From assembly GCF_014635285.1 (NCBI RefSeq), contig NZ_BMCR01000011.1, positions 1 through 64,000 of the forward strand: DNA of 64,000 nucleotides, in the 5' to 3' direction. The DNA is from Stappia taiwanensis. Lineage in GTDB: Bacteria > Pseudomonadota > Alphaproteobacteria > Rhizobiales > Stappiaceae. Positions 7,851 to 49,522 of this stretch are shown here, piece by piece (position 1 is the stretch's first letter; every line of letters begins with the position of its first letter). The position numbers and the translations under genes were made by a program. Under the pieces are notes generated by a model. It ran no database searches and was not told where the DNA came from. It worked only from the letters and a program-made list of their open reading frames with translations.

Positions 7851-10598
7851 ATGTCGACGAAACCAGCGGAAACCCGCCCTCGGGACAGCGACGCGCCGGA
7901 GCAAAAAGCCGCACCGCGCCTGACCCCGATGATGGCGCAGTATATCGAAATCAAGACGGCCAATCCGGATTGCCTGCTGTTCTACCGGATGGGCGATTTC
8001 TACGAGCTGTTCTTCGAGGACGCGGAAGCGGCCTCGCGGGCGCTCGGCATCACCCTGACCAAGCGCGGCAAGCATCTGGGCGAAGACATTCCCATGTGTG
8101 GCGTGCCGGTGGTCTCCGCCGACGACTACCTGCAAAAGCTGATTGCCCTGGGTTTTCGCGTTGCCGTGTGCGAACAGACCGAAAATCCGGCCGAAGCCAA
8201 GAAGCGCGGCGCCAAGTCGGTGGTGCGGCGGGACGTGGTGCGTCTCGTTACCCCCGGCACCCTGACCGAGGACCGGCTGCTCGACGCGGCTCGCAACAAC
8301 TACCTCCTGGCGCTGCACCGCGCACGCGGCGGCTCGCTCGATGGCGAGACCGTGTACGGCCTCGCCTGGATCGACATTTCCACCGGCGTTTTTCGTGTCG
8401 CCAGCAGCGACGAGGCGCGGCTTGCCGCCGATCTTGCCCGGATCGACCCGCGCGAGGTGGTCGTCGCCGACAATCTGCTGGAGGACGAAGGGCTGAAGGG
8501 CCGGATCGCCGACAGCCGGGCGGCGCTGTCGCCAGTGCCGCGCAGCCTGTTCGACGGCGCCACCGCCGCCGACCGGCTCGCCCGCTATTTCGGTGTCGCG
8601 ACCCTCGACAGTTTCGGCCAGTTCTCCCGGGCGGAGTTGACGGCGGCGGCCGGTGCGCTCGGCTATGTGGAGCGCACCCAGTTCGGCGAACGGCCACCGC
8701 TCGATCCGCCGTCACGCGAGGGCGATGGCCAGCGGATGCTGATCGACCCGGCTACCCGGGCCAATCTGGAGCTGATGCGCACCCTGTCCGGCGAACGTAG
8801 CGGCTCGCTGCTGTCGGTGATCGACCGCACCGTCTCCGGCGCCGGTTCGCGGCTCCTGGCCAGCCGGCTCGCCAGCCCGCTCACCGATCTTGCCGCGATC
8901 CATGCCCGCCAGGCGGCCATCGCCCATCTCCATCAGGACACCTATCTGCGCGAACGGCTGCGCGGGGCGCTGAAATCCGTACCGGACATCGCCCGCGCTT
9001 TGTCGCGGCTGGCCCTGCAGCGCGGCGGTCCGCGCGATCTTCTGGCGCTGGCCGAAGGGCTGACGGCGGCAGGCGATATCGCCGCGCTGTTTGCCGAGGG
9101 CGCGGAACTGCCGGCGGAGCTCGCCGCCGCGCTGGCCGACCTCAGGGCCGCGCCTATGACGCTGGCCGCCGACCTGGCCCGGGCCATCGACGACAACCCG
9201 CCGCTGCTGAAACGCGATGGCGGCTTTGTCGCGAGCGGGTATCTGGAGGAGCTGGACGAAGTCCGGCGGCTGCGCGACGACAGCCGCAAGGTGATCGCCA
9301 AGATGCAAGGGGACCTGTGCGAAGAACTCGCCATTCGTGCCCTGAAGATCAAGCACAACAACGTGCTTGGCTGGTTCATCGAGGTGCCGGCGGCTCATGC
9401 GGACAAGCTGACAAGCGACCCGGCCCGGTTCATTCACCGGCAAACCATGGCCGGCGCCATGCGCTTCACCACTCCGGATCTGGCCGATCTGGAAAGCCGG
9501 ATCGCCAATGCCGCCGGCCGCGCGCTCGCGCTGGAGCTGGAGACCTTCGACCGACTCACCGCCGAGGTGGTTGCCGTTGGCGCGGCGATCAAGACGGTGG
9601 CGGCGGCGCTGGCCGTTCTCGATGTCGCCAGCGCGCTGGCCGTGCTGGCGGAGGCGGAGGACCATGTCTGTCCGCTGGTGGATGACAGCCTCGCCTTTGA
9701 GATCGAAGGCGGGCGGCATCCGGTGGTCGAAGAGGCCCTGAAGCGCAGCGGCGGCGAGACCTTCGTCGCCAACGACGCCAATCTCGGCCCGGGCGAGGGC
9801 GAGGAAAGCGGGCATATCTGGCTGATCACCGGCCCGAACATGGCCGGTAAATCCACCTTCCTGCGGCAGAACGCGCTGATCGCCATCCTGGCGCAGATGG
9901 GCGCCTTCGTGCCGGCGCGCCGGGCGCGGATCGGCATTGTCGACCGGCTGTTCTCCCGGGTGGGCGCGGCCGACGATCTGGCGCGCGGGCGCTCCACCTT
10001 CATGGTGGAAATGGTGGAAACCGCCGCCATTCTCAATCAGGCGGGCCCGCGTTCGCTGGTCATTCTCGATGAGATCGGCCGTGGCACCTCCACCTTCGAC
10101 GGGCTGTCGATCGCCTGGGCGGCCATCGAGAACCTGCATGAGGTCAACCGGTCGCGGGCGCTGTTCGCCACCCACTACCATGAGTTGACCGCGCTTTCCG
10201 CCCGCCTGCCGCGCCTGGCCAACGCCACCGTGCGGGTCAAGGAATGGCAGGGCGATGTGGTGTTCCTGCATGAGATCGCGCCCGGCGCCGCCGACCGGTC
10301 CTATGGCATTCAGGTGGCCAAACTCGCCGGTCTGCCGGCGGCGGTGGTCGAACGGGCGCGGCAGGTGCTGTCGCAGCTGGAAGAGCAGGACCGGCGGGCA
10401 CCAGCCGAAGCACTGATCGACGATCTGCCGCTGTTCGCGGCCATGTCGCCGAGCCCGGCCCCGGCGACTGCACCGGCGGCACCGGACCCGGTTCTTGAGA
10501 CCCTCGACGGGCTCGACCCGGACGACCTCACCCCGCGCGAGGCGCTGGAGGCGCTCTACGCCTTGAAACGGGCGCGGGCGAGTAAGGAAGCCGGCTAA
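7851..10598 (+). CDS. mutS: DNA mismatch repair protein MutS
   Basis: A 915-residue mismatch-recognition ATPase. The N-terminal mismatch-binding motif GDFYELF (Phe-x-Glu, near residue 50) is present, followed by connector, lever and clamp regions, then the ABC-type ATPase with Walker [10 protein letters not shown] near residue 660, Walker [17 protein letters not shown] and FATHYHEL. The C-terminal tail is rich in Pro and Ala and ends with a short helix ([12 protein letters not shown]) that resembles the MutS tetramerisation helix. The length is somewhat above the E. coli protein. It is divergent from maeB; no mutL lies in the window. Confidence 0.98.
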
Positions 10599-21678: not shown

Positions 21679-22266
21679 TTATTCACATGCGGACAGCGCC
21701 CGCAGGATCCCCTGGACGGCGCGGCGGGCGGGCTCCAATCCTCGTCCGGTATCCACCAGGAAATGCGCGCGCCGGCGTTTGTCCGCATCCGCCATCTGCC
21801 GCGACAGGATCGCGGCAAAGCTCTCCGGCGTCATGTTCGGACGGGCCAGGACCCGCTGGCGCTGAACCTCAGGCGCGGCGGTGACCACCACGCTGGCATG
21901 CACCCGCGCTTCGCCGCCGGTCTCGAACAACAGCGGAATGTCCAGCACCGCCACCCGCGCGCCCGCCGCCCGGGCGCTGTCGAGAAACGCGGTTTCGCTG
22001 CCGCGCACCAGCGGATGGACGATCCCCTCCAGCCGGGTCATAGCCGCGCCATCGCCCATCACCTTTGCCGACAGCGCCTTGCGATCGACCGCCCCGTCCC
22101 GGGTGGTGCCGGGAAACGCCGCCTCGATCAAGGGCACCGCAGCACCGCGATAGAGCGCATGAACCGCCGCATCGGCGTCATAGACGGCAGCCCCCGCCTC
22201 GGCGAACATCGTCGCCGTCGTCGACTTGCCCATGCCGATGGAGCCGGTGAGGCCGAGCACGATCAT
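21679..22266 (-). CDS. coaE: Dephospho-CoA kinase
   Basis: A 195-residue P-loop kinase that makes the final phosphorylation of coenzyme A. The P-loop [12 protein letters not shown], the [11 protein letters not shown] strand with its Asp and the [11 protein letters not shown] motif are typical of CoaE. Its ATG overlaps the aroE stop in ATGA (22263-22266), so it is translationally coupled to aroE in the maf-aroE-coaE run. Length is normal. Confidence 0.97.
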
Positions 22267-23102: not shown

Positions 23103-23695
23103 CCCTCGAGCGCCCCGAGCACCCGCAATTCCCCCAGAAGCGGCAGCAGCGGCAGGCCAAGAACGGTGAAATAGTCGCCGTCGATGGCGCTGAAGAGCTG
23201 AATGCCCGGCCCTTCGAGCTGATAGGCGCCGACGCTGGTCAGGGCAACTTCGCCCACCCCGGCAAGATAGCGGCCGACGAACTCCGGACCGAACGGCCGC
23301 ATGGTCAGCCGCACGGTGCCGACATTGCGCCACAGGGTTTGGCCGTCGCGGGCGATCGCCACCGCCGAATGCAGCGCATGGGTCTTGCCGGACATGGCCA
23401 GGAGCTGGCGCCGGGCAGCCTCCATATCCGCCGGTTTTGTCAGGCGTTCTCCTTCGAAATCAAGCACTTGATCCGCCCCGATGACCAATGCGCCGGGCCG
23501 GCGTTCGCTCACCTCCTGCGCTTTTGCCTCGGCCAGAACCTGGGCGATATCCTCCGGCGAGAAATCACTTTCCAGCAAGGGCGCCTCAATCGCCCGTTCG
23601 TCGACCCGGGCCGGATCGATGTCAAAGGTCAGACCGGCATTTTGCAATAGCTCGGCGCGGATCTGGCTGCCGCTGGCAAGAACGAGTTCTGTCAT
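23099..23695 (-). CDS. maf: Maf-family nucleotide pyrophosphatase
   Basis: A 198-residue protein hydrolysing non-canonical or bulky nucleoside triphosphates, first described as a septum inhibitor. The N-terminal [15 protein letters not shown] stands where most Maf proteins have ASxSPRR, the catalytic Asp lies in [13 protein letters not shown], and the C-terminal [26 protein letters not shown] is typical. Start ATG 23695 is at the conserved [10 protein letters not shown]. First gene of the coupled maf-aroE-coaE set, downstream of ppsR. Confidence 0.93.
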
Positions 23696-23771: not shown

Positions 23772-24623
23772 TCAGGAGGTGAGCTGATCGACCAGGGCCG
23801 ATTTATGCGCCCGGTAAAGGCTCATGATCTCCGCTGCCGTCTCCTCGATCGAGCGGCGGGTGACATCGATCACCGGCCAGCCGCGCTCGGCGCAGAGTTT
23901 GCGGGTGGTGGCGATCTCCCGGGCGATCTGGCGGCGGTCGAGATAGGTGTCATTGGCGAAACTGCCCGCGTTCAGCGACAGAATCCGGTTCTGACGCACC
24001 TGCTGGATCCGCTCCACCGAGGCGATAACCGCCACCACCATCGCCCGGCGCACGCTGAAAAGCTGCGGCGGCAGCGGAATATCGGGCACGATCGGGATGT
24101 TCGCCGCCTTGAGGCCGCGATTGGCGAGATAGATGCAGGTCGGCGTCTTGGAGGTCCGGCTGATGCCCAGCAACACCACATCCGCCTCGTCCAGATTCCC
24201 CGGAATCTGGCCATCATCGTGCAGCATGGTGAAATTCAGCGCATCGATGCGGTGGAAATAATCCGCATCCAGCGCGTGCTGGCCGCCGACCCGGCCGGTC
24301 AGTTGCACGTTGAGATAGGACTGAAACACCGAAAACACCGGCGACAGGATGTTGACGCATGGGGAAGCGCTGCGGCGTCCGGCCTGTTCCAGCCGCTCAG
24401 CCAGCTCCGTGTCCACCAGCGTGTAGAGCACGATCCCGGGGGAGGCCTCGATCTCGCTGATCACCTGTTCGAGCTGCCGCGCCGAGCGGACCAGCGGATA
24501 GACATGTTCGATCGCTTCGACGTCTTCGTATTGCGCCGTCGCTGCACGCGCGACCGTCATCAGGGTTTCGCCGGTGGAGTCCGAAACCAGGTGCAAATGG
24601 AAGAAGTTACGGCTCTTACCCAA
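23772..24623 (-). CDS. ppsR: PEP synthase / PPDK regulatory protein (DUF299)
   Basis: A 283-residue bifunctional kinase/pyrophosphorylase that switches PEP synthetase or pyruvate phosphate dikinase by ADP-dependent threonine phosphorylation. The N-terminal [13 protein letters not shown] and the P-loop [15 protein letters not shown] are the family marks. The orthologue in Caulobacter (called RP001 after the Rickettsia gene) sits on one side of the chromosomal origin with hemE on the other; the same pair flanks the gap here. Transcribed leftward, away from the predicted origin. Confidence 0.94.
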
Positions 24624-24773
24624 GATATTATCCCCGCGTCGTCAGCCTTTCGCCGTTCGGGAGTCGATAACTCCCTCTTTTTGCCCAGGCAGCCTGGTCA
24701 GGATGCGTGAACCACGAAAACAATCAACAGCGCACAGGCGCGGACGCCGCTTCGCCGAAACGATTTTCATTTG

Positions 24774-24782
24774 TGTGGATGA
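24774..24782 (-). promoter_or_regulatory. DnaA-box-like site in oriC
   Basis: Minus-strand TCATCCACA differs by one base from the TTATCCACA consensus. A weaker one, TGGTCCACA, is at 24950-24958 on the minus strand and is one base away from the TGATCCACA form used in Caulobacter. Confidence 0.5.
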
Positions 24783-24830
24783 CGCGATTGTTCCGCGCCA
24801 CTCCCCAGCTCATCAACAGACGACAAATCG

Positions 24831-24846
24831 TTAACAGATGGTTAAC
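24831..24846 (+). promoter_or_regulatory. CtrA-type site TTAA-N7-TTAAC in oriC
   Basis: TTAA, a spacer CAGATGG and TTAAC match the full CtrA recognition motif without mismatch. In Caulobacter, CtrA binds such sites in the ppsR(RP001)-hemE origin and blocks initiation. No ctrA gene is in the window, and binding is inferred. Confidence 0.6.
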
Positions 24847-25007
24847 GAAGTTTCAAACGGCTGATTTTATTGCGATTATGACGATATCACCGAATTGCGA
24901 CGAAACGCCGTCCCGAAAAATGCTCGACAGTCCCGACTTGAATGAGTCATGTGGACCAGTGTCGATAATCGGTAATCCCGGTTGTCCAGTGACAAACAGA
25001 ATAAACA

Positions 25008-25035
25008 GAATCCTTTTCAAGGATTCTTTCTTTTT
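25008..25035 (+). terminator. Terminator-like hairpin just before hemE
   Basis: An 8-bp stem GAATCCTT/AAGGATTC with a three-base loop is followed by TTTCTTTTT. It ends about 15 bp before the hemE start, so it may terminate transcription coming out of the origin region or act as a hemE attenuator. Confidence 0.55.
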
Positions 25036-25050
25036 AAAAGGGAGTTATCT

Positions 25051-26094
25051 GTGACTGACTCCAGATCGCGGAGAGTGATGCGGGTTCTGGCTGGAGAAAG
25101 GCTCTGGCCGCCTCCGGTCTGGATGATGCGACAGGCCGGCAGATACCTACCCGAGTATCGTGCGACCCGCGCGAACAAGAGCAATTTCCTCGAGTTCTGC
25201 TACGACACGGATCTCGCCACCGAAGTCACGTTGCAGCCGATCCGGCGCTATGGCTTCGATGCCGCCATTCTTTTCTCCGACATTTTTGTCGTTCCCGATG
25301 CGCTTGGGTATCCGGTGCGCTTTGAGGAAGGACGCGGTCCGGTTCTGGAGCCGCTGTCCTCAGAGCTTGTTTCGCGGCTCGACCAGGAGCGGGCGGTGGG
25401 TCATCTCGATCCGGTCATCGAGACCGTGCGCCGGCTGCGCAGCGAATTGCCCGAGGAGACGACCCTTCTTGGCTTCTGCGGTGCGCCCTGGACGGTGGCC
25501 TGTTACTCGGTCGCCGGTCACACCACCGCCGATCAGACCGCGGCCCGGGTCGGGGCCTATCGCGATCCGGCATTGATGCAGTCCTTCATTGACGCATTGG
25601 TGCCGGCCTCGATCCGCTATCTGGTGCGCCAGTTGAAGGCCGGTGCCGATGCGGTGCAGATCTTCGACACCTGGGCCGGCGTTCTCGATGATGCCGGGTT
25701 CAAGCGCTGGTCGATCGAACCGACCCGGCGGATCGTCGAAGGGGTCCGCAAGGAAGTCCCCGATGCACGCATCATCGGTTTTCCAAAGGCGTCGGCCGCC
25801 CGGCTTGAGACATTCATCACTGGGACCGGTGTGGATGCGGTCGGCCTCGACTGGACGGTGCCGGCGGATCTGGCGCGCCAGGTCCAGAGCAAGGTTGCGG
25901 TGCAGGGGAATCTCGATCCGATGCGGTTGGTGGCCGGCGGCGAGGCCTTGCGGGAAGGGGTCGATCAGGTGCTTGCCAACCTGGGCAAGGGGCCGCTCGT
26001 CTTCAATCTGGGTCATGGGGTGACACCGGATGCGGATCCGGACAATGTTGCGCGGATGATCGATCAGGTGCGGTCCGCGCCGGATCCCATGTGA
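25051..26094 (+). CDS. hemE: Uroporphyrinogen decarboxylase
   Basis: A 347-residue cytoplasmic enzyme that converts uroporphyrinogen III to coproporphyrinogen III in haem synthesis. [17 protein letters not shown], the catalytic Asp in [32 protein letters not shown] and [15 protein letters not shown] are the family motifs. GTG 25051 is the likely start, with GGGAG six bases upstream. It is the first rightward gene after the predicted origin and is followed seven bases later by hemJ, another haem gene. Confidence 0.97.
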
Positions 26095-49367: not shown

Positions 49368-49427
49368 GCGGCGGTGCGGTGGCGCGGCGGGATTGGCCCC
49401 GGTCTGACCCCGGCAAATGCCCGATGG

Positions 49428-49442
49428 TTAATGAGGGATTTA
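49428..49442 (+). promoter_or_regulatory. CtrA-like site upstream of the aminotransferase-ftsK genes
   Basis: TTAA-N7-TTTA is one base from the full CtrA motif TTAA-N7-TTAA. It is about 80 bp before the aminotransferase gene, which seems to share a transcript with ftsK. Low confidence, as such matches occur by chance. Confidence 0.3.
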
Positions 49443-49522
49443 CCAACCGGCGATAGGCTTGCGGCAGATATTCTGGACGATCCGGGCCAAGGCCTTCGGA
49501 TCTAGGGAGAATTTTGGTTCGC

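Follow-up and report, generated by a model that had tools for sequence, protein, structure and literature searches.

The chromosomal origin of Caulobacter lies between hemE and a gene of the RP001/COG1806 type, and contains an AT-rich region, weak DnaA boxes, and CtrA sites of the TTAA-N7-TTAA type. According to two papers, GANTC motifs occur in this origin (PMC3973325), CtrA is thought to act there by steric exclusion of DnaA, and removal of all five CtrA sites perturbs the cell cycle mildly (PMC4468827). Origins located by hemE, with consensus sites for CtrA, DnaA, and IHF, were predicted in silico in Rickettsia prowazekii and Wolbachia (PMC1914354), and a CtrA ChIP-seq peak next to the origin is described for Hyphomonas neptunium (PMC7200025). 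Sinorhizobium meliloti over-replicates without CtrA, yet reportedly has neither a CtrA motif nor CtrA binding at its origin (PMC4433202). The reported targets of CtrA in B. abortus include the promoters of ftsE and rpoD but leave out the origin (PMC2877005). A 2024 paper still calls the link between CtrA and replication in Rhizobiales unclear (PMC11500502), other published work reports the CtrA docking site to be absent from origins outside Caulobacter and a few relatives, and for Agrobacterium a connection between methylation and the second origin is reported (PMC11514494). Searches of an open-access library, which leaves out most subscription journals, listed no paper on CtrA sites in Rhizobiales origins.

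The window analyzed here, a stretch of 64,000 nucleotides, comprises bases 1-64000 of a 147,368-base contig (C11) from a 4.42-Mb genome in 20 contigs. The best-matching named record, with a 98% identical ppsR protein, was Stappia indica SN13-18 of the family Stappiaceae, so the placement in Rhizobiales made in a preliminary description of this DNA is right in the wide sense. Another record under the same species name, SBBC 49, shows 84% likeness to the window ppsR, and one of the two species names may be wrong. The preliminary description had also predicted a chromosomal origin in the gap between the divergent genes ppsR and hemE, and the limits that it gave, 24624-25050, are exact: ppsR starts at 24623 on the minus strand, and hemE starts with a GTG codon at 25051, preceded by a GGGAG box. 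The two genes were adjacent and divergent in 66/66 Stappiaceae sequences used. The features of the locus, in window coordinates, are as follows.

23772-24623, minus strand: ppsR (RP001/DUF299 type), left boundary gene (PF03618, Kinase-PPPase, 297.1 bits).
24624-25050: ppsR-hemE gap, 427 bp, between divergent genes; predicted chromosomal origin (oriC).
24628-24636, plus strand: DnaA-like sequence TTATCCCCG, two mismatches; a run invariant in the genus covers 24628-24635.
24723-24729, plus strand: ATCAACA element, ca. 95 bp from the ppsR start; an unbroken invariant run in 14 genus genomes.
24774-24782, minus strand: weak DnaA box TCATCCACA, one mismatch to TTATNCACA.
24813-24818, plus strand: second TCAACA, 12 bp left of the CtrA-type site.
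24830-24846, both strands: perfect CtrA-type site GTTAACAGATGGTTAAC, of the form GTTAAC-N5-GTTAAC; TTAA-N7-TTAAC without mismatch.
24841-24856, minus strand: second CtrA-like match, one mismatch, overlapping the perfect site.
24950-24958, minus strand: weak DnaA box TGGTCCACA, one mismatch to TGATCCACA; overlaps a genus-invariant run at 24946-24955.
24960-24968, minus strand: weak DnaA box TTATCGACA, one mismatch to TTATNCACA.
25000-25039: most AT-rich 40-mer, 77.5% AT; probable unwinding element, with the keto minimum at 25013.
25008-25012: GAATC, the first GANTC (CcrM target) of a pair on the AT-rich stretch beside hemE.
25022-25026: GATTC, the second GANTC of the pair; the two sites together make up a perfect 9-bp inverted repeat at 25007-25027.
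25034-25049, plus strand: third CtrA-like match, one mismatch, at the hemE ribosome-binding site; may be due to chance.
25051-26094, plus strand: hemE, right boundary gene (PF01208, URO-D, 371.8 bits).

To locate the origin, compositional excesses were followed along the contig. The cumulative keto (G+T) excess is lowest at 25013, a position within the gap; the cumulative G-C minimum lies at 23607, ca. 1 kb to the left of the gap, and the purine-excess minimum is found at 9043, away from it. Since the purine excess points elsewhere and this contig holds only 24 kb to the left of the gap, GC skew was sampled in two complete genomes of the same genus, with 20 stretches of 20 kb in each. In 40/40 stretches the skew had one sign on the hemE side and the opposite sign on the ppsR side, and in both genomes the sign switched solely at the gap and about half a chromosome away. 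The stretches flanking the gap in the second complete genome had values of -0.053 and +0.014, and the keto minimum of the flanking 40 kb was located ca. 30 bp before hemE (38 bp for its counterpart in the window). The skew check suggested in the preliminary description thus placed the minimum at the gap in the two complete genomes and left the origin assignment standing, with the G-C minimum of the contig itself 1 kb off. The AT-rich stretch that had been noted in the gap is real: the AT content of the gap is 51.5%, versus 34.4% for the window, and the 40-mer at 25000-25039 ranks at the top of all 63,960 window 40-mers. Based on the skew switch, the keto minimum of the contig, the AT-rich stretch, and the gene order, we conclude, in silico, that the ppsR-hemE gap is very probably the start point of chromosome replication in this marine Stappia.

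The sequence TTAA-N7-TTAAC, reported earlier to stand in the gap without mismatch, is indeed present there on both strands, with hemE 205 bp away on one side and ppsR 207 bp away on the other. When up to one mismatch was allowed, the window contained seven matches versus 0.40 expected, a number reached in 0/100 shuffles, and four of the seven fell within the gap. Perfect copies occur at 13 distinct places in the 4.42-Mb genome, and therefore 0.0013 would be expected in 427 bp; in simulations that used the gap's own composition, a perfect motif arose in 0.26%. A near-palindromic CtrA-like match, with one mismatch and on both strands, is located well outside the gap, at 49427-49443.

Conservation of the site was examined in the genus and in the family. 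All 14 genus genomes had a perfect TTAA-N7-TTAA in the gap, with four different spacers. In the genus alignment, where 32% of gap columns are invariant, all eight motif columns were unchanged while four of the seven spacer columns varied; eight invariant columns in the same arrangement were found at 5 of 412 offsets, and two of these five correspond to the CtrA site. Of the 80 named loci used in the comparisons, nine yielded no gap. For Stappiaceae, loci were taken from 30 of the 87 family genomes, and 15 of the 66 sequences were dropped at an identity of at least 97%, which left 51 gaps. The aligned site was perfect in 23 of these and had one mismatch in 21 (44/51 within one mismatch), and the remaining seven gaps, all from Pseudovibrio, had three mismatches. 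The same place was occupied by unrelated spacers in Stappia stellulata (CAAGAAG), Pannonibacter phragmitetus (GAGATCC), and Roseibium limicola (CGAGACC). The motif, whose conservation the preliminary description had named as a check, is thus kept, and the CtrA-type site looks to be under selection on the evidence of these alignments. A perfect site was missing from 8/8 Pseudovibrio gaps, and the site is therefore dispensable within Stappiaceae.

To see how far the motif extends, 59 genomes from 25 other Rhizobiales families (at most four per family) were picked by hand; the choice was made among the top-scoring listed places of 288 genomes that had a hemE match. Ten of them, without ppsR beside hemE, were dropped (ppsR was located elsewhere in three of the ten, all of one family), leaving 49 gaps from 21 families. 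A perfect TTAA-N7-TTAA was observed in 19/49 gaps, representing 10 families, with 0.35 expected from gap composition; with the dropped genomes included, the count was 23/59 versus 0.67 expected. At the genome-wide rate of 1113 places in 232 Mb, 0.11 sites would be expected in the 49 gaps, versus 22 seen, a ca. 200-fold excess. In a spacing control over the same gaps, spacers of N2 to N6 were found in 0, 0, 0, 2, and 1 gaps, and spacers of N8 to N15 in 0, 0, 0, 2, 0, 0, 1, and 0 gaps, respectively. Families differ in the position that the site takes in the gap, suggesting turnover; in one family (f29), two perfect sites lie 33 bp before hemE. A second, named sample, consisting mostly of metagenome bins, had a perfect site in 4/35 gaps (0.89 expected), the positives being a Beijerinckiaceae bin, a Methylocystis bin, a Hyphomicrobiales bin, and Cohaesibacter celericrescens. 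The rate of 19/49 set against that of 4/35 indicates that perfect sites are frequent in part of Rhizobiales, not throughout. Other alphaproteobacterial orders were represented by 40 of 110, of which 37 had ppsR adjacent, and 4/37 of these gaps contained a perfect site (0.35 expected). Judged by sequence comparison, the CtrA motif at the gap is real, conserved, and spacing-specific.

The genome contains one ctrA gene (NF045991, 424 bits, above the cut-off). Perfect motifs are located directly before ftsE (TIGR02673, 282 bits, above the cut-off), ca. 170 bp before a presumed rpoD ORF that was recognized by eye, and 13 bp before flgB (TIGR01396, above the cut-off). As the promoters of both ftsE and rpoD are reported targets of CtrA in B. 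abortus, the motifs before ftsE and the presumed rpoD support the identity of the motif as that of CtrA. Only some of the other 12 motif places precede typical CtrA targets, and others adjoin genes without a known CtrA link, such as cas9 and glutaredoxin. A motif near flhA lies beyond the flhA stop, and flhA is therefore not counted among the candidate CtrA targets. The cas9 gene (TIGR01865, 446 bits) belongs to a type II CRISPR locus at ca. 396.5 kb of another contig (C4), where a perfect TTAA-N7-TTAAC is situated between the cas9 stop and a cas1-like ORF.

The DnaA-box-like sequences that the preliminary description listed for the gap were found, but they are weak, and no perfect TTATNCACA box is present in the gap. 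Boxes with one mismatch to TTATNCACA occur 12 times across the whole window versus 9.8 expected, which is the level of chance. The sole perfect TTATNCACA box of the window, at 21679-21687, is located at the end of a coaE-looking ORF, 3 kb from the gap. DnaA boxes exceed chance across gaps of Stappiaceae and Rhizobiales: sequences with one mismatch to TTATCCACA numbered 44 in 51 Stappiaceae gaps (4.8 expected) and 63 in 53 Rhizobiales gaps (3.5 expected), and the DnaA-box core TCCACA ranked first in an unbiased k-mer count, being present in 49/53 Rhizobiales gaps with 9.4 expected. The hexamer TCAACA was found in one orientation at 55-150 bp from ppsR, a range chosen after its locations had been seen, in 25/49 gaps from 12/21 other Rhizobiales families (1.0 expected), and in the reverse orientation in 1/49; in other alphaproteobacterial orders, it was found at this distance in 1/37 gaps. 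Either TCAACA or TTAACA stands at the ppsR-side place in 45/51 Stappiaceae gaps. From its sequence, ATCAACA may be a variant of the DnaA box in which one base of the core is changed; its role may lie at the origin or in the promoter of ppsR. It was rejected as an IHF site, because the sequence after it lacks the 3' half of the consensus. The IHF consensus WATCAN5WTR itself has two matches in the gap (24854-24866 and 24885-24897), but they are not conserved, with any match in only 10/51 Stappiaceae gaps.

GANTC, the target of CcrM, is concentrated at the probable unwinding element beside hemE, a trait of methylation-controlled origins of the SeqA/Dam-like kind. At least two GANTC sites between -110 and -20 of hemE were counted in 44/51 Stappiaceae gaps (2.9 expected), in 29/59 gaps of the order sample (3.6 expected), in 18/35 gaps of the named sample (1.2 expected), and in 5/37 gaps of other orders (2.4 expected). 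The genome has a ccrM-like methylase gene (NF050803, 632 bits, below the Caulobacter-set cut-off of 830) and two GcrA-family genes. The inverted repeat formed by the pair in the window scores as terminator-like, and in Stappiaceae, where 34/49 pairs are complementary, the pair may form a hairpin. The hairpin reading was rejected for the order sample, in which 9/31 adjacent pairs were complementary at N, about as base usage predicts, and inward pairing was nearly absent; GANTC itself therefore seems to be the kept feature there. A possible role of the pair is methylation control of unwinding or of hemE.

In silico, the place of the origin, the presence and selection of the CtrA motif, and the presence of ctrA are shown, and the silencing of initiation by CtrA at the predicted site is plausible. 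We consider it probable, though well short of assured, that the main chromosome has a single origin at which CtrA~P binds the mid-gap site, hinders DnaA assembly, and delays initiation; binding, exclusion of DnaA, and delay are what we infer. The gap would be this single origin, and DnaA would load on the weak boxes and open the AT-rich stretch beside hemE. During the non-replicating phase, CtrA~P would occupy the mid-gap GTTAAC-N5-GTTAAC, which adjoins DnaA-like boxes (the nearest DnaA-like hexamer is 12 bp away), and would thereby hinder assembly of DnaA. Dephosphorylation or degradation of CtrA would then lift the block. Silencing by CtrA is made less certain by the reported B. abortus targets, which exclude the origin, and by S. 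meliloti, which is without origin sites; by the Pseudovibrio gaps without a site and the yield of only 4/35 in the named sample; by the single perfect site here versus five in Caulobacter, whose removal acts mildly; and by those other motif places that adjoin genes without a known CtrA link.

The same site could belong to a promoter, so that CtrA would control hemE, ppsR, or a transcript across the origin and have no direct effect on DnaA. The position between two divergent genes would suit such a role, as would the paired sites close to hemE in family f29, and for the origin of Caulobacter, activation of promoters is likewise under discussion (PMC4468827); however, the site is distant from both gene starts, it stands among DnaA-type boxes, and a scan of 24500-25200 found no sigma-70-like promoter, a scan by which alphaproteobacterial promoters may be missed. 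We regard the promoter role as unlikely. Still less likely, in our view, is that the gap is an origin in which the motif is a relic or the site of another factor, and initiation is free of CtrA action, the situation proposed for S. meliloti. The precedents of S. meliloti and B. abortus and the loss of the site in Pseudovibrio fit a relic, but a relic would decay, whereas both half-sites are kept in 14/14 genus genomes around a spacer that varies in four of seven columns, and the N7 spacing is specific over 49 gaps. The motif data thus speak against a relic, but do not separate a promoter role from a role in replication. That the gap is no origin at all, the preliminary description having been misled by gene order, we find scarcely credible: the short left arm of the contig, its purine minimum at 9043, and its G-C minimum outside the gap would allow it, but all 40 stretches in the two complete genomes put the skew switch at the gap.

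Beyond CtrA silencing at this one origin, we tentatively suggest, while regarding it as rather doubtful, that the origins of Rhizobiales follow a format specific to the order. It would read two cell-cycle clocks simultaneously, the CtrA~P level through a CtrA site in mid-gap and the methylation state through a CcrM pair on the unwinding element, and would include ATCAACA as a variant DnaA box at a fixed spacing from ppsR. If this were true, control of origins by CtrA would be widespread, with repeated losses and regains, in an order taken to lack it. Stappiaceae are wide-sense Rhizobiales in which a direct link of the Caulobacter type between CtrA and the origin can be tested at one defined site, and the natural losses of the site in Pseudovibrio provide a ready comparison.

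Compared with described systems, the gap is most likely a Rhizobiales variant of the Caulobacter-type origin. It shares with Cori of Caulobacter crescentus the location between hemE and the RP001/COG1806 gene (ppsR), the AT-rich region, the weak DnaA boxes, the TTAA-N7-TTAA sites, and the GANTC motifs. Cori differs in having five CtrA sites (PMC1914354 and PMC4468827), versus one perfect site and two with one mismatch here, and what sets Rhizobiales apart is ATCAACA together with a GANTC pair in a constant position beside hemE (TCAACA was found at the corresponding place in 1/37 gaps of other orders, and a GANTC pair in 5/37). The predicted origins of Rickettsia prowazekii and Wolbachia are similarly placed on the hemE side and carry CtrA and DnaA consensus sites, but these AT-rich genomes yield TTAA pairs easily, whereas in the GC-rich Stappia genome the chance of such pairs is low; in Wolbachia, the left boundary gene is also different. 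Hyphomonas neptunium has a CtrA peak next to the origin, but it belongs to another order, and binding was measured there, while the likeness here is that of the motif alone. Sinorhizobium meliloti, like Stappia a member of Rhizobiales in the wide sense, is a species in which CtrA restrains DNA content; its origin is reported to be without a CtrA motif or CtrA binding (PMC4433202), whereas the gap of Stappia contains a perfect motif.
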